Source of the DNA: an uncultured Acidimicrobiales bacterium
GTDB lineage: Bacteria; Actinomycetota; Acidimicrobiia; Acidimicrobiales; Aldehydirespiratoraceae
DNA length: 64,000 bases
Direction of reading: 5' to 3'
NCBI GenBank assembly: GCA_958296055.1
Contig: CATQHS010000001.1
Location: 880,277 to 944,276 of the forward strand
Shown in pieces: positions 12,819 to 47,575 of the stretch. A program made the translations under genes and the position numbers. Numbering within the stretch: position 1 is the stretch's first letter; the number at the start of each line of letters is the position of its first letter. The notes under the pieces were generated by a model. The model was not told where the DNA came from and made no database searches. It saw nothing but the letters and a program-made list of their open reading frames with translations.

Positions 12819-13382
12819 TTGGCGGTTACCGGCGACGAGGCCGCCGACCGGCTGGTCAACGCCAACCCGCTGGCCCTGCTGATGGCCATGCTGCTCGACC
12901 AGCAGATCACCATGGAATGGGCCTTCATGGGACCGCACCGGCTGCGCGAGCGGCTCGGCGTCGAGCTGGCACCGGCCGCGGTGGCCGCCCTCGACCCTGA
13001 GGACTTCGCTGCCGCGGTGGCGGCCCGCCCGGCTCTGCACCGGTTCCCCGCGGCCATGGCCGACCGGATTCTGCGGCTTTGTCATCACCTGGTAGACCGC
13101 TACGACGGCGACGCCGCTGTGTGGACCGGGGCGTCAACCGGCGCCGAGCTCTTGGGCCGCATCCGAGACCTGCCCGGCTACGGCGACGAGAAAGCGAAGA
13201 TCCTGGTGGCGGTGCTGGGCAAGCGTTTCGAGGTCCGGCCCGACGGCTGGGAGGCGGCCTCCGCCCCCTTCTCCGACGGCCAGCCCCGGACGGTGGCCGA
13301 CATCGACGGCCCCGAAGCCCTGAGCCGAGTCCGGGCCTGGAAGAAGGCCCAAAAGGCCAAGGGCAGGGCCAAGGACCAGTAG
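12819..13382 (+). CDS. HhH-GPD family base-excision-repair-like protein (TIGR03252 type)
   Basis: The protein has the family start (LAVTGDEAADRLVNANPLALL then MLLDQQITMEWAFMGP) and a helix-hairpin-helix GPD region, with the IRDLPGYGDEKAKILVAVL hairpin at about 120-138. It ends in a Lys-rich tail. The fold is that of DNA glycosylases such as Nth and MutY. The biochemical activity of this actinobacterial subfamily is not established to my knowledge. I chose the TTG at 12819 because GGAGG lies at 12804-12808, ten bases upstream, and family similarity starts here. Its 3' end has a second, detached copy at about 16562-16640. Confidence 0.85.
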   Translation: MAVTGDEAADRLVNANPLALLMAMLLDQQITMEWAFMGPHRLRERLGVELAPAAVAALDPEDFAAAVAARPALHRFPAAMADRILRLCHHLVDRYDGDAAVWTGASTGAELLGRIRDLPGYGDEKAKILVAVLGKRFEVRPDGWEAASAPFSDGQPRTVADIDGPEALSRVRAWKKAQKAKGRAKDQ

Positions 13383-13469
13383 TCCGGGCTGCGCTCCGCC
13401 GCTCTCGGACCACTTCCAGCATGGGCCGCTCTGAGCGGGTCGGGTGCAGGGGCCTGACTTGGGGTGGAG

Positions 13470-13557
13470 CTATGATGGATTATCGATTACGCTATGATGG
13501 ATTATCGATTAGACTATGATGGATTATCGATTACGCTATGATGGATTATCATGCAAC
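13470..13557. repeat. Four 22-bp tandem repeats at the start of the DUF4143 ATPase gene
   Basis: Four direct units start at 13470, 13492, 13514 and 13536. The shared core is CTATGATGGATTATCGATTA. The third unit repeats the first, the second differs in its last two bases, and the fourth diverges after TTATC where the ATG (13551) of the ATPase gene begins. Each unit carries a TATGAT hexamer like a -10 element and a TATCGATTA palindromic core. The array is AT-rich in a GC-rich setting. It could be a set of operators or stacked promoters. There are no spacers, so it is not CRISPR. Confidence 0.85.
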
Positions 13558-14852
13558 CTACAGGTAACCTTCAAAGAGCACTAACGCCGGTTGTTGAGAA
13601 GCATCTCAAGATCATGCCGGTGGTGGTGTTGACTGGAGCCAGGCAGAGCGGCAAGACGACGTTGGCCAGAGATCTGGTCACCGAACCTCGTCGGTTCCTG
13701 ACCCTGGACGATACAAGGGTCCGCAGCATGTCTCGCACTGATCCAGACTCTTTGCTAAGGGGGTCGGTGCATTCGCGGCCTCCCGTTGGCTTCGCGCTTC
13801 CCCAAGAACGCATTGATCCAAACACCCCGCTGAGTGGACCAGGACCGCTCACGCTAGACGAAATCCAGCGTGAGCCCAACCTGCTACACGCCATCAAGCG
13901 CTTGGTCGACGAAGAGCGGCGAACTGGCCAATTCCTGCTGACCGGCTCGGCTGACCTATTGCTAATGAAACGAATTTCGGAGTCGCTGGCCGGGCGGGCC
14001 AGTTTTCTGAACTTGCGACCCATGACGCGACGAGAGTTAGGCGGTGCCGGGCGCAGCGGAATCTGGGGCGAACTGTTGCGTGCCCCGGTCCGCGACTGGG
14101 CCGCCATCGCAGCCTCGCAGCCGAGCGAACCCGAGAATTGGCAGAACCTGGTGCGCCGGGGTGGCTTCCCCTTTCCCGCAGCCCAAATCGATTCAAATGA
14201 AGATCGAGCGGTGTGGTTTGACGGTTACGTGCGCACCTACTTAGAGCGCGACCTGCACGAACTGTCGGCTGTATGGTCTCTGCCGGACTTCCGCCGGCTC
14301 ATGGCCGCGGTCAGCCTCAATATCGGCCAGACCCTTAACGCTGCACAACTAGGCCGCTTCCTGTCCATGACATCGACAATGGTGAGCCGGCATCTCAAAT
14401 TGCTGGAAGCTTCTCACTTGCTGGTGAGAGTCCCCGCCTTCACGATCAGCCGAAATCAACGGCTCATCAAATCGGCGAAGCTTTACTGGGCCGATCCGGG
14501 TCTGGCCATGTTCTTGAGTCAGGCACCTGAACCCACAAACGCCCATCTAGAAAATCTGATCTTGTGCGACCTTCTCGTTTTCTGCGACACGGAAATGTCT
14601 TCGACAGCGGTGTTCCACTGGCGCACCTCCACCGGACAAGAGGTTAATTTCGTACTGGAACACGAACGCAGACTGATCCCCATTGATATCAAACTGACAC
14701 AAAACCCCCACATCGCCCACGGAACTCGTCTGAGCGCGTTCAGGCGTGCGTACGGCGACCACTCGCTACCGGGACTGTTGATTCACTGCGGTAATCAAGT
14801 GGGCTGGCTGGCTTCCGGGATTTTGGCCGTCCCCTGGTGGAAACTGATCTAG
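13551..14852 (+). CDS. AAA-family ATPase with DUF4143 C-terminal domain
   Basis: The 433-residue protein has a Walker A motif GARQSGKT at residues 29-36, a sensor-like DLVTEPRRFLTLDD segment and a Walker B motif (LTLDEIQREP) near residue 104. A winged-helix-like middle part contains SMTSTMVSRHLKLLEAS. The DUF4143 nuclease-like C-terminal region contains VFHWRTSTGQEVNFVLE (E-V-x-F) and PIDIKLT, a pattern reminiscent of PD-(D/E)XK cores. Such COG1373 proteins are common, mobile and mostly uncharacterised. The gene has lower GC than its neighbours and sits directly behind the 22-bp repeats. This points to a transferred, self-regulated gene, but that is inference. Confidence 0.85.
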   Translation: MQPTGNLQRALTPVVEKHLKIMPVVVLTGARQSGKTTLARDLVTEPRRFLTLDDTRVRSMSRTDPDSLLRGSVHSRPPVGFALPQERIDPNTPLSGPGPLTLDEIQREPNLLHAIKRLVDEERRTGQFLLTGSADLLLMKRISESLAGRASFLNLRPMTRRELGGAGRSGIWGELLRAPVRDWAAIAASQPSEPENWQNLVRRGGFPFPAAQIDSNEDRAVWFDGYVRTYLERDLHELSAVWSLPDFRRLMAAVSLNIGQTLNAAQLGRFLSMTSTMVSRHLKLLEASHLLVRVPAFTISRNQRLIKSAKLYWADPGLAMFLSQAPEPTNAHLENLILCDLLVFCDTEMSSTAVFHWRTSTGQEVNFVLEHERRLIPIDIKLTQNPHIAHGTRLSAFRRAYGDHSLPGLLIHCGNQVGWLASGILAVPWWKLI

Positions 14853-15671: not shown

Positions 15672-16319
15672 TCACCGGGGACGCAACTTCCGGCGGTAGT
15701 CGGTGTGGTCCCTGACCATGCGGTAGTCCTCGCTGCTGAGCAGATACGAGTATTCGACCGGCTGCTGCTGCAAACGCCGGCCGCCTCCTACCCAGGAGGC
15801 CGAGTCGCACGCTACGCCCAGGCTTGCTGCGGCTTCAACGCCTGGCAGCAGGTCCGCGTCGCCTGAGAACACCACAGCGGCGCTGAACTGGTCACGGGCA
15901 GCGCCCAACGCTAGATCGACCACCAGCATCGTGTCGATCCCCTTCTCGTGCGGCTTGCCATCGTTGTCGTATGCCAGTGGTCGCGTTCTGATCTTCAACG
16001 GGGCCTTCAATTTCGCGGCGTCGCGTTTCCAGCGCGCCACCTGTCTGTATGACCTAGAAGCCCCTTGTCTGTCGCGCGTCGGCGATGGCATACCCCGGTA
16101 GACGCCGACCATGACAAGCAGATGCGGCCGTCCTCTCCTCTCCTCGCGCCGGGCGACGATCAGCCTTGCCACCGACCACGGGTTGAACTGGCCCGCGGTC
16201 CCGGGATTGGAGCGGTCCGCGCCGACTGCTTGCATGGCGCCCTCGTAGGCGTTCATGAAATCAATGAGCACGGCGACGCGTTCCGGCGCGCCGGTTTTCG
16301 GCTCAGATTGAATGGTCAC
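15672..16319 (-). CDS. NYN-domain (PIN-like) ribonuclease
   Basis: The protein has the NYN core: an N-terminal acidic strand VAVLIDFMNAYE with the first Asp, a middle KGIDTMLVVDLALGAARD segment with the second acidic cluster, and VVFSGDADLLPGVEAAASLG with the third. These residues form the metal site of the PIN-like nuclease fold. The family cleaves RNA, often in tRNA processing or phage defence. I chose the GTG at 16319 because GAGGAG lies eight bases upstream. A longer frame from 16364 lacks such a site. A broken duplicate of its 3' end lies just downstream. The targets of this copy are unknown. Confidence 0.8.
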   Translation of the reverse strand: MTIQSEPKTGAPERVAVLIDFMNAYEGAMQAVGADRSNPGTAGQFNPWSVARLIVARREERRGRPHLLVMVGVYRGMPSPTRDRQGASRSYRQVARWKRDAAKLKAPLKIRTRPLAYDNDGKPHEKGIDTMLVVDLALGAARDQFSAAVVFSGDADLLPGVEAAASLGVACDSASWVGGGRRLQQQPVEYSYLLSSEDYRMVRDHTDYRRKLRPR

Positions 16320-16694
16320 TGACGCTTCTCCTCGGATCTCTTCGGATCCGTCACGGAATATCACTAAACTAATGTTAAAATACTGGAATTACAACAGCCA
16401 GGGCGGCCACCGAGCAGCGCGGGCGGCCGCACGCGCTGAGGCCAAAGCCCGCACCTCCGGGCCAGCGGTCGAGGACCCCGACACTCTGGCAGCCGCGCCG
16501 TGCTCCGACATTGAGAGGCAGCGGCAGTGTCCGCCGACGTCCCCGGCCGGGGCAGTGATGGCCGCCCCCCTTCTCCGACGACCAGCCCCGGACGGTGGCC
16601 GACATCGACGGCGACGAGGCCCTGAGCCGGGGCAGGGGCAACCAGGGCCAAGCAGGCGGTAGTCCCTGCCAACCGACAGGTAGGCTTGACGCGA
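16320..16694. other. Intergenic stretch with a detached HhH-GPD gene tail
   Basis: About 375 bp lie between the divergent NYN gene and the first thioredoxin-like lipoprotein gene. The first 60 bases are AT-rich and likely hold the NYN promoter. The middle is GC-rich and non-coding. The end holds a copy of the HhH-GPD 3' sequence (listed separately). Confidence 0.5.
16562..16640 (+). pseudogene. Detached copy of the 3' end of the HhH-GPD gene
   Basis: Bases here match 13263-13341 of the HhH-GPD gene with few changes, including CCCCTTCTCCGACG and GGTGGCCGACATCGACGG. No upstream or downstream part of the gene is present. Together with the intact gene it brackets the DUF4143 and NYN genes like a direct repeat. 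Confidence 0.75.
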
Positions 16695-24157: not shown

Positions 24158-24170
24158 CCCCTGATGACCC

Positions 24171-24238
24171 CTGACGACCCTGAGACCCTGACGACCCTGA
24201 GACCCTGACGACCCTGAGACCCTGACGACCCTGAGACC
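24171..24238. repeat. Four 17-bp tandem repeats between pstB and phoU
   Basis: Units of CTGACGACCCTGAGACC start at 24171, 24188, 24205 and 24222 and are identical. A degenerate partial unit flanks each side. They occupy most of the 101-bp pstB-phoU gap. There is no dyad symmetry that would make a strong hairpin. Confidence 0.88.
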
Positions 24239-24258
24239 CCGATGACTGCGAGACCGCC

Positions 24259-38554: not shown

Positions 38555-40807
38555 GTGTTAAAACTACGAAGAATCGAAATAACCAATTTCGCCTTTTTTG
38601 ACAACATAGTGATTGAGCCATCCATCAATCCCGAAAGGCCGCTCACAGTAATCCGAGCAGAGAACGGTTCAGGTAAGACCACTCTTTTACGTGCTATACG
38701 GTGGGGCATGTATGGAGAAAAAGGTCTACCAGTGGATTCGAAACAGTTCTCTGTTCATCCAGCCTGGTGGCATCCAAACGATGACAGAATTGAAACATCG
38801 GTTAAGATTGAATTCGAAACAGATGGCTCTAGCAGATACGATACAGATAGAAGTCCAACCACTACAATCTTTGAGTTAGTTAGATCTGTAACGACAATTG
38901 GTAATCCGACGGCGAAGGACGGTGAACCAGATTTCCAGCGCATCCAGGAACAAACACAACTAATGTATAAGGACGGTAATAGAACATGGAAGCCGCACAC
39001 AGCCGGGGTTGACATCATTGTTGAACAACTTCTTCCCTGGGGGCTCCGTGACTTTTTTGTGATGGATGCTGATGAAGCAACGGATTTCGTAGGGGGTAGT
39101 GAAAATAAAGAAATGGGCCACCAGGAAGTAATTGACAAAACGACATCTGCAGTTCACAATCTTCTCGGTCTTGAAGTCTTTAGAGAAGCATCAAAAAGAG
39201 TAGCAAATAAGGCACGAGAATTTGGTGCTCAAGCAACTAGAGCCATAGGCAATGATGACTTAGATGCGCTCCAAGATGAACTCGACCAAATGATATTTAA
39301 AGCCTTCGAACTCGAAAAAAGATTGAAAGAACACCGAACACAAGTCAAGAAAACTGAAGACCGAATCCAGCAAGGCGAGTTCGATTTAGGGAACGAGTTG
39401 AAAGGTATGGGCGCAGTCGAGGAACTGAGGAAACGCCGAGAGGCTAACCAGGTCAACGATGATAGAGCTACTAAGCGAAGGACATCAACTTTGAACTTAC
39501 TCGCTGGCGAACTTGAATCAGTTGATTTATTAGCTTCATTAGCAACTAATCAAATTACTAGCTCATACGATATGCTTCAACCACTTTATGAATTAGGTCA
39601 TATTCCACTCAAACATCTTAATTTCGTTCGTGATCTACTGAGGTCAGGAACTTGCGTCTGTGGCCAAAACATCTCTGAAGAAGGTCTCCATCGTCATAAC
39701 GTTAAAAATCGTATCGCTAAATCCGCCGAACAAGAAGACCGCGCTAACTATCTCGGCCAACTGTACGACGCTACTCGATCACTAATGAACCATACATCAG
39801 CTACTAGTTGGGACAACCGACATAATGAGTACGTCAGAGATCTAGCGGCTCTTGACGACGAATTGGCCAACCTCAGTCTAGATAAACAAGAAATTGAAAC
39901 CAAACTAAATGCTATTGATGAAGAAAAAATTCAGATTATTCGCAGTGAGATAGCAGCTTTAGACATTCAAAAGGATAATCTTAACAGAAACATTGTTAGA
40001 GATGAAGTAAGACTCGCATCTATAGAAGAACTAATTGACTCTCATGAGAAGAAAATCAATCAACGACAACGCAACGAACGAGCCGCTACTGACAAACGTA
40101 CGGCGAAAGCGATTGCACAACTCATCGTCAAGATACTTGATCAAGCTTACAATACCATCCAAACCGAACAGGTAAATGAGCTTTCTCAACAGATGAACCG
40201 GCTCTTCGCACAAATGGCGGCTAACGTCTCCGATAATGATTTTGAAGATATACAGCGCAACGAAACAACGCTCAGAATGATTACTGAAGTCGGTATTCGT
40301 TCTCTTGATTCTAATCCAGATGAATATGAAATCTATGCACTAAATAATCGTGGACGCTCCATGCCAACCATCGAGATCAATGGTGCTTCTCGACGGATAC
40401 TCGCTTTGTCATTTATACTCGCATTGTGCATTGAATCTCAGACATACGCTCCTTTTATTGCGGATTCACTTCTAAATTTCATGTCTGGTACAGTCAGGCA
40501 TAACACACTGCGTGTAACTACTATACGCTCTAGTCAACCGATACTACTACTCACGGGCTCCGATTTAGAAACTTCAGAAGTGATCAAAATAATAGATCAG
40601 TATTCCGATACTACTTATACTCTTACCGGACAATGGGATGCTGTTGATGCCGGTTACGGCGGAGATGTAGTGAACTGGACTGCTCAATCTCAAGTGGCAC
40701 TCTTATGCCACTGCAGACCTCGGCAGTATTGTGACATCTGCGAGCGGATCGGGCAAGATGCTTCACAGGGGTGGGAGAAGCGTTCTTATGGAAAGAAGAA
40801 TTTATGA
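38555..40807 (+). CDS. DndD-like SMC/Rad50-type ATPase with zinc hook
   Basis: The 750-residue protein has Walker A in RAENGSGKTTLLRAI (about 37), a long coiled coil (about 200-550) with a CVCG zinc-hook motif near 367, and an ABC-type signature around NGASRRILALSF (about 610). The Walker B region reads PFIADSLLNFMSG, so the usual acidic pair is only partly kept. A short C-terminal tail holds a second cysteine cluster, CHCRPRQYCDIC. DndD in phosphorothioation systems has this shape. Start is GTG at 38555. The unusual Walker B and the extra cysteine tail set it apart from DndD. Confidence 0.82.
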   Translation: MLKLRRIEITNFAFFDNIVIEPSINPERPLTVIRAENGSGKTTLLRAIRWGMYGEKGLPVDSKQFSVHPAWWHPNDDRIETSVKIEFETDGSSRYDTDRSPTTTIFELVRSVTTIGNPTAKDGEPDFQRIQEQTQLMYKDGNRTWKPHTAGVDIIVEQLLPWGLRDFFVMDADEATDFVGGSENKEMGHQEVIDKTTSAVHNLLGLEVFREASKRVANKAREFGAQATRAIGNDDLDALQDELDQMIFKAFELEKRLKEHRTQVKKTEDRIQQGEFDLGNELKGMGAVEELRKRREANQVNDDRATKRRTSTLNLLAGELESVDLLASLATNQITSSYDMLQPLYELGHIPLKHLNFVRDLLRSGTCVCGQNISEEGLHRHNVKNRIAKSAEQEDRANYLGQLYDATRSLMNHTSATSWDNRHNEYVRDLAALDDELANLSLDKQEIETKLNAIDEEKIQIIRSEIAALDIQKDNLNRNIVRDEVRLASIEELIDSHEKKINQRQRNERAATDKRTAKAIAQLIVKILDQAYNTIQTEQVNELSQQMNRLFAQMAANVSDNDFEDIQRNETTLRMITEVGIRSLDSNPDEYEIYALNNRGRSMPTIEINGASRRILALSFILALCIESQTYAPFIADSLLNFMSGTVRHNTLRVTTIRSSQPILLLTGSDLETSEVIKIIDQYSDTTYTLTGQWDAVDAGYGGDVVNWTAQSQVALLCHCRPRQYCDICERIGQDASQGWEKRSYGKKNL

Positions 40808-41322
40808 ATTATTACACAATCTTTTTGTGCTCTCAAGCGCACACTCTCCGCCTGCCAAGCAAATCAAAAGACGACATTGAACGATACATATTGCAACACA
40901 AGAAGAAGGGCTCTGTCAGCCCAGAAGTAGCTCCTTTCCGCCGTCAGCTTGATTTTTGGGCACTTTCTATCGCAACAGCTCTAGCTCGCGGTACTCCACC
41001 GCTTAAGGAACCTTCCACCCGATGGGGAACGAAATTTGCTGATACTAGATCTGTTGAGATGCCAGACGGTCTGTGCGAGTTATTAGCTGTCATCACTCTA
41101 GCTGTGCTAGGACCTGAGGACGAAAGAATAGATGATCCTGCACAGATTATTGAGTTAGGCAACCAATTAGCAGGTGCCGGATGCCCAGAACTTCTCAAAC
41201 AACTAAGCAACCCAGATCTAAGAACCACAGCACTTGACAAAGCACTAGAATTTGCAGTATCATTACGATCTGCGGTACGCATTGCTACATTCGGTCAGTC
41301 GGTCAGTCAGAGGGGTACGTAA
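40804..41322 (+). CDS. Unknown operon protein (172 residues)
   Basis: The ATG at 40804 overlaps the stop of the zinc-hook ATPase as ATGA. The product is mixed alpha with a hydrophobic mid-part (CELLAVITLAVLG) but no real membrane helix. The N-terminus YYTIFLCSQAHTLRLPSKSKDD is distinctive. I know no family for it. Its fixed place between the ATPase and the DUF262 gene suggests that it is a subunit of the same system. Confidence 0.7.
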   Translation: MNYYTIFLCSQAHTLRLPSKSKDDIERYILQHKKKGSVSPEVAPFRRQLDFWALSIATALARGTPPLKEPSTRWGTKFADTRSVEMPDGLCELLAVITLAVLGPEDERIDDPAQIIELGNQLAGAGCPELLKQLSNPDLRTTALDKALEFAVSLRSAVRIATFGQSVSQRGT

Positions 41323-42399
41323 ATGAAGAGACAAACTAGTGAATGGGCAGTGACGATGTTAGCTGCCTTACGTGGTCGCATAAATATAGAAGCAGAATAC
41401 CAAAGAGGTGAAGTGTGGTCAGAGTCACAACAACAGCTACTAATTGATTCAATTTTGAGAGGCTTTGACCTTCCTAAAATATTCCTTAGAAGACTTCCAG
41501 ATGGTTCCGATTTGCTCTTTGATGTCGTGGATGGGGTTCAGCGACTTACGTCAATTTGGCGGTTTTTAGCAGACGAATTTTCTCTTCCGAGGCACTACTC
41601 ATATCCTGATCTTGGGGATGTGGGTGGTAAGAGTTGGTCTCAATTACCTCAAGCTGCAAAGGACCGACTTGAGCTAACTAAAGTTACCGTGTCTGAAATA
41701 GAAACTGAAGATGAGTACGAAATCAGAGACTTATTTCAACGTCTTCAGAAAGGTGAGCCGCTCAACGCAGCCGAACGACGTAATGCTATATCTGGTCCTG
41801 TAAGAAATTTCGTAGCTGACGAACTAGCAATACACTCCTTTTGGCCTAAAACAGGGCTCAAAGAAAAACGATTTGGATGGCATGAAATGTCAGCAATTGC
41901 TTTAGCCTTGGTGAAAGCTAAAGGTGCTACAGGTTTAAAGGCTGCCGACCTTTTTACTCTGTACGAAGATCAATCATTTGATCCGCAAGGCGAAACTGCT
42001 GAATTAACTAAAGACCTTTTAGGTAGTCTTGAAGCGGTAGTTGATAAAGAACCTAAATTGATACGGACACGCTGGGGCCTAGTAGATCTATTGCTATCAA
42101 TTATGCAACTAAGAACCAAAGGTACTGTTCCGCTCGTAGATGAAATCATAGGATTCTTCAAAATTTTTGAAGACGAGCGTAGGATGGGGACCGCAGAATT
42201 ATCGGATCTCAGAGCCACAGTTATTGATTTAGCTTCAGACAAGATAACCGAAGAAGAAATTGAACCTTTAGCTATCAAACCAGATATGCTGACATATCTC
42301 AATGCTTTCACACATGAAGGTGCTTCAGAAAAAAATGTGAAGACACGGGCTGAGGTTATGACGAATCGCTTATATCAATATTTGCAGGAAGCACCTTAA
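41323..42399 (+). CDS. DUF262 (ParB-like N-terminal GmrS-type) protein
   Basis: The 358-residue protein has the DUF262 fold with EYQRGEVWSESQQQLLIDSIL then FDVVDGVQRLTSI. The family's nucleotide motif is normally DGQQR; here it is DGVQR, with Gln replaced by Val. The HNH/DUF1524 nuclease half found in GmrSD and SspE is absent, so this is the sensor or NTPase half alone. The start codon follows the preceding stop directly, and the stop shares one base with the next start (TAATG). It may regulate the helicase and ATPase module or sense modified DNA. Confidence 0.82.
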   Translation: MKRQTSEWAVTMLAALRGRINIEAEYQRGEVWSESQQQLLIDSILRGFDLPKIFLRRLPDGSDLLFDVVDGVQRLTSIWRFLADEFSLPRHYSYPDLGDVGGKSWSQLPQAAKDRLELTKVTVSEIETEDEYEIRDLFQRLQKGEPLNAAERRNAISGPVRNFVADELAIHSFWPKTGLKEKRFGWHEMSAIALALVKAKGATGLKAADLFTLYEDQSFDPQGETAELTKDLLGSLEAVVDKEPKLIRTRWGLVDLLLSIMQLRTKGTVPLVDEIIGFFKIFEDERRMGTAELSDLRATVIDLASDKITEEEIEPLAIKPDMLTYLNAFTHEGASEKNVKTRAEVMTNRLYQYLQEAP

Positions 42400-45511: not shown

Positions 45512-46258
<747 letters not shown>

Positions 46259-46267
<9 letters not shown>

Positions 46268-46372
46268 GCGCCAGCCTTCCCCCCGCGATCAAGGACGGGC
46301 CGTGAGCGCCAGCCTTCCCCCCGCGATCAAGGACGGGCCGTGAGCGCCAGCCTTCCCCCCGCGATCAAGGAC
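46259..46372. repeat. 38-bp tandem triplication of the sufC-sufS junction
   Basis: Three identical 38-bp units start at 46259, 46297 and 46335. Each contains GGGCCGTGAGCGCC, in which a GTG start overlaps a TGA stop. The first GTG overlaps the sufC stop. From each of the first two GTGs a 13-codon frame runs to the TGA in the next unit, where another GTG begins. The third GTG (46340) is the sufS start. The result is two overlapping minigenes in a translational chain. Confidence 0.95.
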
Positions 46373-47575
46373 GACTTCCCGCTGCTTAGCCGGTCGGTGC
46401 ACGGCCGCCCGATCGTCTACCTCGACTCGGCCGCCACCTCCCAGAAGCCCCGGGCGGTGCTGGACGCCATGGCCGTGTACTACGCCACCGTCAACGCCAA
46501 CGTGCACCGGGGGGCCTACGAGATAGCGGCCCAGGCCACCGAGGCCATGGAGGGGGCCCGCCGGGCGGTGGCCCGGTTCGTCAACGCCGCCTCGGCCAAC
46601 GAGATCGTGTTCACCAAGAACGTCACCGAGGCCATCAACCTGGTGGCCCGGTCCTGGGGCGGCGCCAACCTCGGGCCCGGCGACGCGGTGCTGGTCACCG
46701 AGATGGAGCACCACGCCAACATCGTGCCCTGGCACATCATGGCCGCCGAGCGGGGCTTCGAGCTGCGGTGGATCCCGCTGACCCCCGACGGCCGGCTCGA
46801 CCTGGAGAACCTGGACCGGCTGCTCGACGGCGTGAAGCTGGTGGGCTGCACGGCCATGAGCAACGTGCTCGGCACCCTCAACCCGATCCGGCGGCTGGCC
46901 GACGCCGCCCACGGCGCCGGGGCCCTGCTGCTGGTGGACGCGGCCCAGTACGTCCCCCACCTCCCCACCGACGTGCAGGCTCTGGGGGCGGACTTTCTGG
47001 GCTTCACCGGCCACAAGATGTGCGGCCCCACCGGGATCGGGGTGCTGTGGGCCAGAGCCGAGCTCCTCGACGCCATGCCCCCGTTCCTGGGCGGCGGCGA
47101 GATGATCCTCGATGTCCGCAAGGACGGGTTCCTGCCCAACGAGATCCCCCACAAGTTCGAGGCCGGCACCCCGCCCATCGCCGAGATCGTGGGGCTGGGC
47201 GCGGCGGTGGAGTACCTGAGCGGGCTGGGCATGGACCGGGTGCGCGAGCACGAGGTGAGCCTCACCGCCTATGCGCTGCGGACCCTGAGCGAGCGCTACG
47301 GCGACGACTTGGTGGTGCACGGACCGCCCGAGCCGGCCGCCCGGGGCGGGGTGCTGTCGATGGCCTACCGCGATGTCCACCCCCACGACGTGTCGCAGGT
47401 GCTCGACCAGCACGGGGTGTGCGTGCGGGCCGGCCACCACTGCGCCAAGCCGCTGATGCGCCAGCTCGGGGTGGGCGCCACCGCCCGGGCCTCGCTGTAC
47501 GTCTACAACGACGAGTCCGACATCGACGCCTTGGCCGACGCCCTGGCCGAGGCCGGCGAGCTGTTCGCCTGGTAG
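46340..47575 (+). CDS. sufS: SufS-type cysteine desulfurase
   Basis: The 411-residue type II desulfurase has YLDSAATSQKP at the start, the PLP lysine in FTGHKMCGPTG and the catalytic Cys in RAGHHCAKPLM. It supplies sulfur for Fe-S assembly with SufU as acceptor, and SufU follows. The start is the third GTG of the 38-bp triplication. This enzyme is separate from the SspA-like desulfurase at 29.4 kb. Confidence 0.95.
   Translation: MSASLPPAIKDDFPLLSRSVHGRPIVYLDSAATSQKPRAVLDAMAVYYATVNANVHRGAYEIAAQATEAMEGARRAVARFVNAASANEIVFTKNVTEAINLVARSWGGANLGPGDAVLVTEMEHHANIVPWHIMAAERGFELRWIPLTPDGRLDLENLDRLLDGVKLVGCTAMSNVLGTLNPIRRLADAAHGAGALLLVDAAQYVPHLPTDVQALGADFLGFTGHKMCGPTGIGVLWARAELLDAMPPFLGGGEMILDVRKDGFLPNEIPHKFEAGTPPIAEIVGLGAAVEYLSGLGMDRVREHEVSLTAYALRTLSERYGDDLVVHGPPEPAARGGVLSMAYRDVHPHDVSQVLDQHGVCVRAGHHCAKPLMRQLGVGATARASLYVYNDESDIDALADALAEAGELFAW

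Follow-up and report, generated by a model that had tools for sequence, protein, structure and literature searches.

Among the defences of prokaryotes, PDC-S01 is ranked fourth in frequency in a 2026 paper, which describes it as an ATPase domain fused to a member of the PD-(D/E)XK superfamily and states that for most candidates like it experimental validation is pending (PMC12988326). The portions of the PDC-S01 literature consulted contain no mention of a start-codon operator, and in the portions of the open-licence literature consulted we found no reports of operators at DUF4143 genes. Here we describe a gene of this kind, preceded by a short tandem repeat that runs up to its start codon, in a 64,000-nucleotide stretch of the genome of an uncultured Acidimicrobiales bacterium (contig CATQHS010000001.1, assembly GCA_958296055.1), hereafter referred to as the window. 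The encoded protein has the AAA_14-DUF4143 layout of PDC-S01 (PF13173 + PF13635) and differs from it in an altered nuclease motif and an insertion.

The fold of the modelled protein resembles SSO1545, PABY2304 and the STAND NTPases (Apaf-1, NLR, Avs), from which it is set apart by a C-terminal PD-(D/E)XK domain, by having no added sensor domain and by a winged helix that we propose, from the structure model, as a DNA binder. In ATPases of the NLR/CED-4 type the winged helix acts in ADP autoinhibition, and the domain therefore need not touch DNA. The operators of toxin-antitoxin and defence regulators lie over the promoter that they control, and each system has its own. The sites at DUF4143 genes may likewise overlap the promoter of their own gene and are mostly private, but they take the form of 22–24-bp direct arrays or of palindromes, and no separate regulator gene was found, the presumed repressor being the ATPase. 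With plasmid iterons the window array shares tandem units that each span about two helical turns, and the neighbourhood of a gene for an ATPase with a domain of DNA-binding type. DUF4143 arrays differ from iterons in standing at the starts of chromosomal genes, at most of which the sequence is a different one.

A repeat array in front of the DUF4143 gene

The first-pass annotation had described AT-rich tandem units at the start of a DUF4143 ATPase gene (Table 1); the repeat is real, and the ATG follows it directly. TRF gives a period of 22, 3.7 copies and a score of 150, the GC content is 35% (63% in the whole window), and the score of the array was reached by no dinucleotide shuffle (p 0.003, which is the floor with 300 shuffles). 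Four near-identical units had been counted, of which the near identity holds (three overlapping 37-nt copies are 95–100% identical, and the last two bases of unit 2 are unlike those of the other units) but the number does not, the fourth unit being only partial. The hexamer TATGAT occurs, as claimed, in 4/4 units, but the TATCGATTA core that was assigned to each of them is missing from the fourth, whose sequence ends with ATTATC immediately before the ATG. The array had also been drawn to position 13557, seven bases into the coding sequence, and was shortened to its true end.

The 19-bp core has three sites in the 3.3-Mb assembly, all inside the array, and no reverse copy there (up to three mismatches were allowed in both cases); an exact search of genome contigs with the 37-bp array sequence gave no matches. 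A consensus promoter scan of positions 13300–14000 found no promoter on the + strand, and its four matches on the − strand recur with the array units.

A coding origin of the unit was considered and rejected: read from its ATG the unit gives MMDYRLR, like some DUF4143 N-termini, and a period of 22 shifts the frame. Likeness to the upstream sites of relatives, described below, explains the window unit better. An RNA hairpin before the start was also set aside, being possible for the palindromic class of sites, whereas direct repeats need not form one. We prefer a DNA site because it would be common to the palindrome and direct-repeat classes.

Elsewhere in the window, PADLOC matches outline a possible defence island at 38555–42399, and further tandem repeats lie at 46257–46373 (perfect 38-bp repeat, 3.1 copies, 100% matches) and at 24159–24239 (17-bp repeat, 4.6 copies).

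Table 1. Coordinates of the array, the DUF4143 gene and other features, numbered from the first base of the window
Feature	Position	Strand	Remarks
22-bp direct-repeat array, predicted multi-site operator	13470..13550	+	3.7 units
Array units	13470-13491, 13492-13513, 13514-13535 (22 bp each), partial 13536-13550 (15 bp)	+	
TATGAT of last unit, candidate -10 element	13537..13542	+	8 nt before ATG 13551
AAA_14-DUF4143 ATPase gene, 433 aa, PADLOC candidate PDC-S01	13551..14852	+	
AAA_14 ATPase domain, residues 23-163; Walker A G29-K35, Walker B D103 E104	13617..14039	+	
24-codon insertion, ~residues 75-98, between Walker A and B	13773..13844	+	low model confidence
Winged helix-turn-helix, ~residues 244-296, candidate repeat reader	14280..14438	+	structure model
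PD-(D/E)XK nuclease-like domain, residues 312-433	14484..14849	+	
N366 codon	14646..14648	+	Asp near-invariant at aligned position
NYN-domain protein near DUF4143 gene	15672-16364	-	weak PADLOC HEC-09 match
PbeC/DndD-like ATPase	38555-40807		PADLOC
NsnA/PD-T4-2-like protein	41323-42399		PADLOC; after PbeC/DndD-like ATPase

The encoded protein

The identification of the gene product as a DUF4143 ATPase was confirmed, with AAA_14 and DUF4143 domains above their curated cut-offs, both Walker motifs intact and a PADLOC match to PDLC04790 (PDC-S01) at 1e-94. A winged-helix-like segment, also noticed at the outset, is seen in the confident AlphaFold2 model (mean pLDDT 91.2); the match to an ArsR-type HTH at residues 249–292 is far under its cut-off, and the Foldseek rows for the protein include CzrA and MexR, their aligned range not being shown. 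Among the families present in the fold tables, the best matches were PABY2304 (2qen; Z 15.9, 259 residues, rmsd 4.7) and SSO1545 (2fna; Z 15.2, 260 residues, rmsd 3.8), with NLRs and CED-4 next in the ranking at Z about 13–14, and the AAA+ core is followed by the winged helix in the SSO1545 arrangement. The C-terminal domain, folded separately (pLDDT 95.8), matches Can2 (Z 8.5–9.4), a McrBC chain (Z 8.5) and other PD-(D/E)XK nucleases; the scores are moderate, with Z reaching 9.4 and Foldseek E no lower than 3.8e-4, in agreement with a PD-(D/E)XK fold. As modelled, the window protein is an SSO1545/STAND-like ATPase with a winged helix and a PD-(D/E)XK domain.

The nuclease motif is not intact: in place of D366, E379 and K381 the window protein has N366, D379 and K381. 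The structure alignment took 71 of 76 listed relatives. Asp stands at position 366 in 71/72 aligned proteins, the window protein being the exception; in a larger alignment, with the window protein included in the 133, Asp is found in 131/133 and the remaining non-Asp entry is a gap. At position 379 nearly all aligned proteins have Glu. Because N366 replaces a near-invariant Asp, nuclease activity of the window copy is doubtful; judged by its residues the nuclease is probably inactive, and the copy may be a repressor-only one or a decaying gene. The 24-residue insertion is filled in 4/133 aligned proteins, the window protein included, and a search with the 111-bp piece that carries it matched only the piece itself. 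Membership in PDC-S01 rests on the domains and stands despite the altered nuclease motif. A PHROGs search with the protein gave no match, a single-protein scan of viral contigs found no relative, and DUF234 was not found in the window's own genome.

Direct repeats at DUF4143 genes of the phylum

The window's own genome has ten DUF4143 matches, and at L004, L005, L006 and L007 direct repeats lie just upstream of the gene, each of a different sequence. The window core has no site in the assembly outside its array, and these other genes have repeats of their own.

Direct repeats were scored against dinucleotide shuffles in the stretch from 260 to 20 nt before Walker A, in 110 genes from 116 loci (10 from the window's own genome, 26 from relatives with a listed strand and 80 chosen at random). 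For the random genes, 108 among the rows listed were taken, of which 104 were usable; the rows left out by hand were mainly ones with short or interrupted frames. Loci L038–L040 were not used; nor were L008, L011, L027, L037 and L048 (no usable gene) or L028, which has too little upstream sequence for the test and shows a 24-bp triple repeat by eye. Upstream direct repeats were present in 71/110 genes at p ≤ 0.05 and in 62/110 at p ≤ 0.01, one row (L012) being a mis-chosen neighbour ORF that is absent from the later pooled set. An interior stretch of the same genes gave 6/110 and 0/110, respectively, and TetR upstream regions from the same genome set gave 0/29 at p ≤ 0.05 (29 of 30 were used, and the stretch may be misplaced in the cut loci L146 and L151). 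Among DUF4143 genes drawn phylum-wide, 11/28 had direct repeats at p ≤ 0.05 and 6/28 at p ≤ 0.01.

In the pooled phylum set (144 loci, 135 genes kept, 133 used), direct repeats reached p ≤ 0.01 in 68/133 DUF4143 genes. The period of these arrays is strikingly uniform, falling at 22–24 bp in 66/68 and at exactly 23 bp in 52; at the thresholds used, 53/133 genes have neither direct repeats nor a strong palindrome. One group of 90 genes in the protein tree has 63/68 significant arrays and a best period of 22–24 bp in 84/90, and the other 43 genes, with the window gene among them, have 5 significant direct repeats and 11/16 strong palindromes, the split into 90 and 43 having been made after the labels were seen. 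The window gene is a direct-repeat member within the more palindromic part of the tree. Long near-perfect palindromes of the GGCTAATTCAAAATT...AATTTTGAATTAGCC type, without direct repeats, precede the start at L014, L015, L017 and L018.

The number of these genes varies widely between related genomes. A relative of the window genome has 46 DUF4143 matches in a single 3.5-Mb genome, and several relatives of the same family as that genome have none, which points to strong gain and loss.

Sites of the nearest relatives

The nearest relatives of the window protein are 48–50% identical to it, and the Thermus relative 42.5%. Near relatives, Thermus included, have a palindrome of the TGAATGATTATCATTCA type that resembles the window unit. 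At L199 (50% identity) the palindrome-like CGTGAATGATTATCATTCACG stands directly before the start, and the distance from the palindrome centre to the next TATG is, by eye, equal in L199 and in the window unit. When the window array was compared with upstream regions of relatives, 10/17 aligned beyond shuffles (p ≤ 0.015) and 7/17 had no significant likeness to the window unit, with none at all at L196, L203 and L205. The best reading of the array is therefore that a site typical of the subfamily has been multiplied in tandem, and a recent tandem expansion would fit the near identity of its units.

In 98 relatives, which are related genes and not 98 independent events, the hexamer TANNNT peaks at 6 nt (14 genes) and 7 nt (15 genes) before the start codon, a total of 29/98 where about 6 would be expected from the other positions, at which about three genes each have it; at 8 nt, the distance seen in the window, the count is 4/98. 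The hexamer forms part of the palindrome in the nearest relatives, and its position probably reflects the layout of a leaderless promoter.

The Thermus plasmid pTT27 has three DUF4143 genes. One of them, at 210 kb, is a member of the window gene's subfamily (44% identity), and by eye TGAATGACTATCATTCA is seen three bases upstream of its ATG, although the script scored another palindrome there as the best. From gene order, it would correspond to TT_P0211 of T. thermophilus HB27 (AAA_14, DUF4143), which is listed as up 6.6-fold in plasmid-carrying cells in the part of the report consulted (PMC4406477).

DUF4143 genes beyond the phylum

A non-random, collection-wide scan took the best 80 of 473 confirmed loci, from many phyla, and 6 viral loci; 84 of the 86 were used (78 genes on genome contigs and 6 viral), L265 having no upstream sequence and L237 no start codon. 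Direct repeats (p ≤ 0.01) or a strong palindrome were found in 50/84 genes. The same features occurred in 14/77 stop regions, to which terminators contribute palindromes, in 5/73 stretches far upstream and in 1/84 within the gene. Direct repeats account for 21/84 genes, with periods of 22 bp (14 genes), 23 bp (5), 18 and 30 bp (one each), and strong palindromes for 36/84, 28 of them near the start; several palindromes distant from the start resemble terminators of the preceding gene.

Fifteen plasmid loci were read, and 10 of them have repeats or a start palindrome: 22–23-bp repeats in Rhizobium, Agrobacterium, Sphingomonas, Lentilactobacillus and Actinomyces, and a palindrome at or overlapping the start in Azotobacter (where the gene is broken in the record), Roseovarius, Aminobacter and two Runella loci. 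The start at L182, with a frame broken in the record, was set by hand, and the 30-bp repeat scored at L181 and L195 lies in the upstream gene and was not counted. Neither feature is clear in the remaining five, among them both Thermus loci, which despite failing the test have a short palindrome two bases before the ATG. On Thermus and Actinomyces plasmids, DUF4143 genes were observed within 2 kb of cas3 (L181, L195, L193) or cas2 (L187).

Candidate binders of the sites

Close homologues in different genomes commonly share their site (29/40 pairs at protein identities of at least 65%), and at 38–65% identity sharing falls to 24/640 pairs, made up of 6/49 same-genome and 18/591 different-genome pairs; the sample holds no same-genome pairs above 65%. 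At the threshold used, 43/49 same-genome pairs have no common site. Selection for orthogonality inside genomes was not supported, as pairs from the same genome share slightly more.

The protein that occupies these sites could in principle be another one, an unlinked regulator or a nucleoid protein with many DUF4143 genes under its control, which we regard as rather unlikely. Such a regulator would agree with the slightly higher sharing inside genomes at like identity, and with a co-variation scan of the repeats against segments of the protein, in which no peak fell on the winged helix; moreover, binding by the ATPase is something that we infer. As for variability along the protein, recognition-helix positions vary, but loops do so more. 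However, the sites are largely private, and the assembly has the window core nowhere but in its array, so that unlinked control would need about one regulator per gene. Nor does a neighbouring regulator gene recur in the 15 plasmid loci, for which gene tables are incomplete; CopG, GntR, an HTH protein and an antidote gene were each encountered once. The array units are thus presumably bound by the ATPase itself.

Discussion

DUF4143 genes often carry their own repeated sites at the start codon, most likely for docking of the encoded protein, which would in this way silence its own gene. That the window array functions as an operator is well supported, and we consider it rather probable that it is an autoregulatory, multi-site operator through which the encoded ATPase represses its own gene. 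The first-pass annotation had named autoregulation by the winged-helix ATPase as one option, and this is now the best supported of its readings, as the site geometry tracks the family across phyla, −10-like boxes lie in the same place and no neighbouring regulator gene recurs in the plasmid loci read; it would involve direct binding. Autorepression by the protein's own winged helix is the simplest reading of sites that are placed where the core promoter is expected, mostly private and shared by close homologues. Weighing against it are the missing winged-helix peak in the co-variation scan, the role of this domain in autoinhibition in NLR-type ATPases, the genes and plasmid loci with neither repeats nor a palindrome, the near relatives without likeness to the window unit, the slightly higher sharing of sites inside genomes and the signs of decay in the window copy.

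The usual site of the subfamily would be a palindrome of ~17 bp that overlaps a −10 box just upstream of the start codon, at a promoter that is probably leaderless, and the window gene would have a variant of it in head-to-tail copies spaced 22 bp apart. Its product would bind the units via the winged helix, cooperatively along the DNA, and in the bound state would exclude RNA polymerase from its own promoter. Invasion or another signal, passing through the STAND-like ATPase, would cause release, and the defence protein would then accumulate. For the window promoter we infer repression rather than activation, as well as the trigger.

A quite improbable alternative is that the units are stacked −10 boxes acting as a rheostat, so that copy number sets promoter strength and expression without a dedicated binder. 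Stacked promoters, which had been suggested earlier, are half right at most: each unit has a −10-like box, the last one 8 nt before the ATG, and the near-identical units suggest recent tandem expansion, but many other arrays repeat gene-specific motifs with no −10 evident by eye, many relatives have a palindrome instead of an array, and the consensus scan found no promoter on the coding strand. Neutral, functionless tandem duplication of the start-codon segment is very improbable; the window units are almost identical and the window copy shows signs of decay (N366 and the insertion), but arrays with the same 22–24-bp spacing and unrelated sequences precede dozens of genes, and the sites persist between close homologues of different genomes. 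Transposon ends that bear repeats are partners of AAA+ ATPases such as MuB, and some genomes have many DUF4143 copies, but that the ATPase is part of a mobile or replication unit recognising iteron-type or transposon-end repeats at one end is hardly credible, as the core has neither a reverse copy nor a copy outside the array, the two neighbouring genes searched encode HhH-GPD and NYN proteins, and the sites of relatives hold −10-like boxes. Ends of the Tn7/Mu type, with inverted copies at a second end, were rejected (three forward sites, none reverse), and the earlier comparison with replication or partition iterons is not supported, judging by location and diversity, since the arrays lie where genes begin and those of a single genome are unlike one another.

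Returning to autorepression by the encoded ATPase, a more ambitious form of it, which we think unlikely as a whole, would make DUF4143 (PDC-S01) a self-silencing defence in one polypeptide, in which the winged helix on its private repeats serves as repressor, the STAND-like ATPase as switch and the PD-(D/E)XK domain as nuclease effector. With 10.5 bp per turn, a register of 23 bp amounts to about 2 1/6 turns and would place successive protomers at roughly 60 degrees, so that AAA+ protomers might line up on the promoter as they would in a ring. Their removal from the promoter, by invading DNA or by ATP turnover, would leave the cell armed.

As a set of operator sites the array is an ordinary kind of element; its form, with a fixed geometry and sequences that are mostly private to the gene, is more general than expected, and the gene family that hosts such arrays is a very common, little-tested defence candidate. 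With a private operator at the start codon, each promoter would disclose the DNA-binding specificity of the protein encoded behind it, a promoter reporter would allow a screen for the inducing signal, and mutations could separate DNA binding, ATPase and nuclease from one another. The family would provide a large natural set of operator-protein pairs in which specificity changes quickly between homologues.
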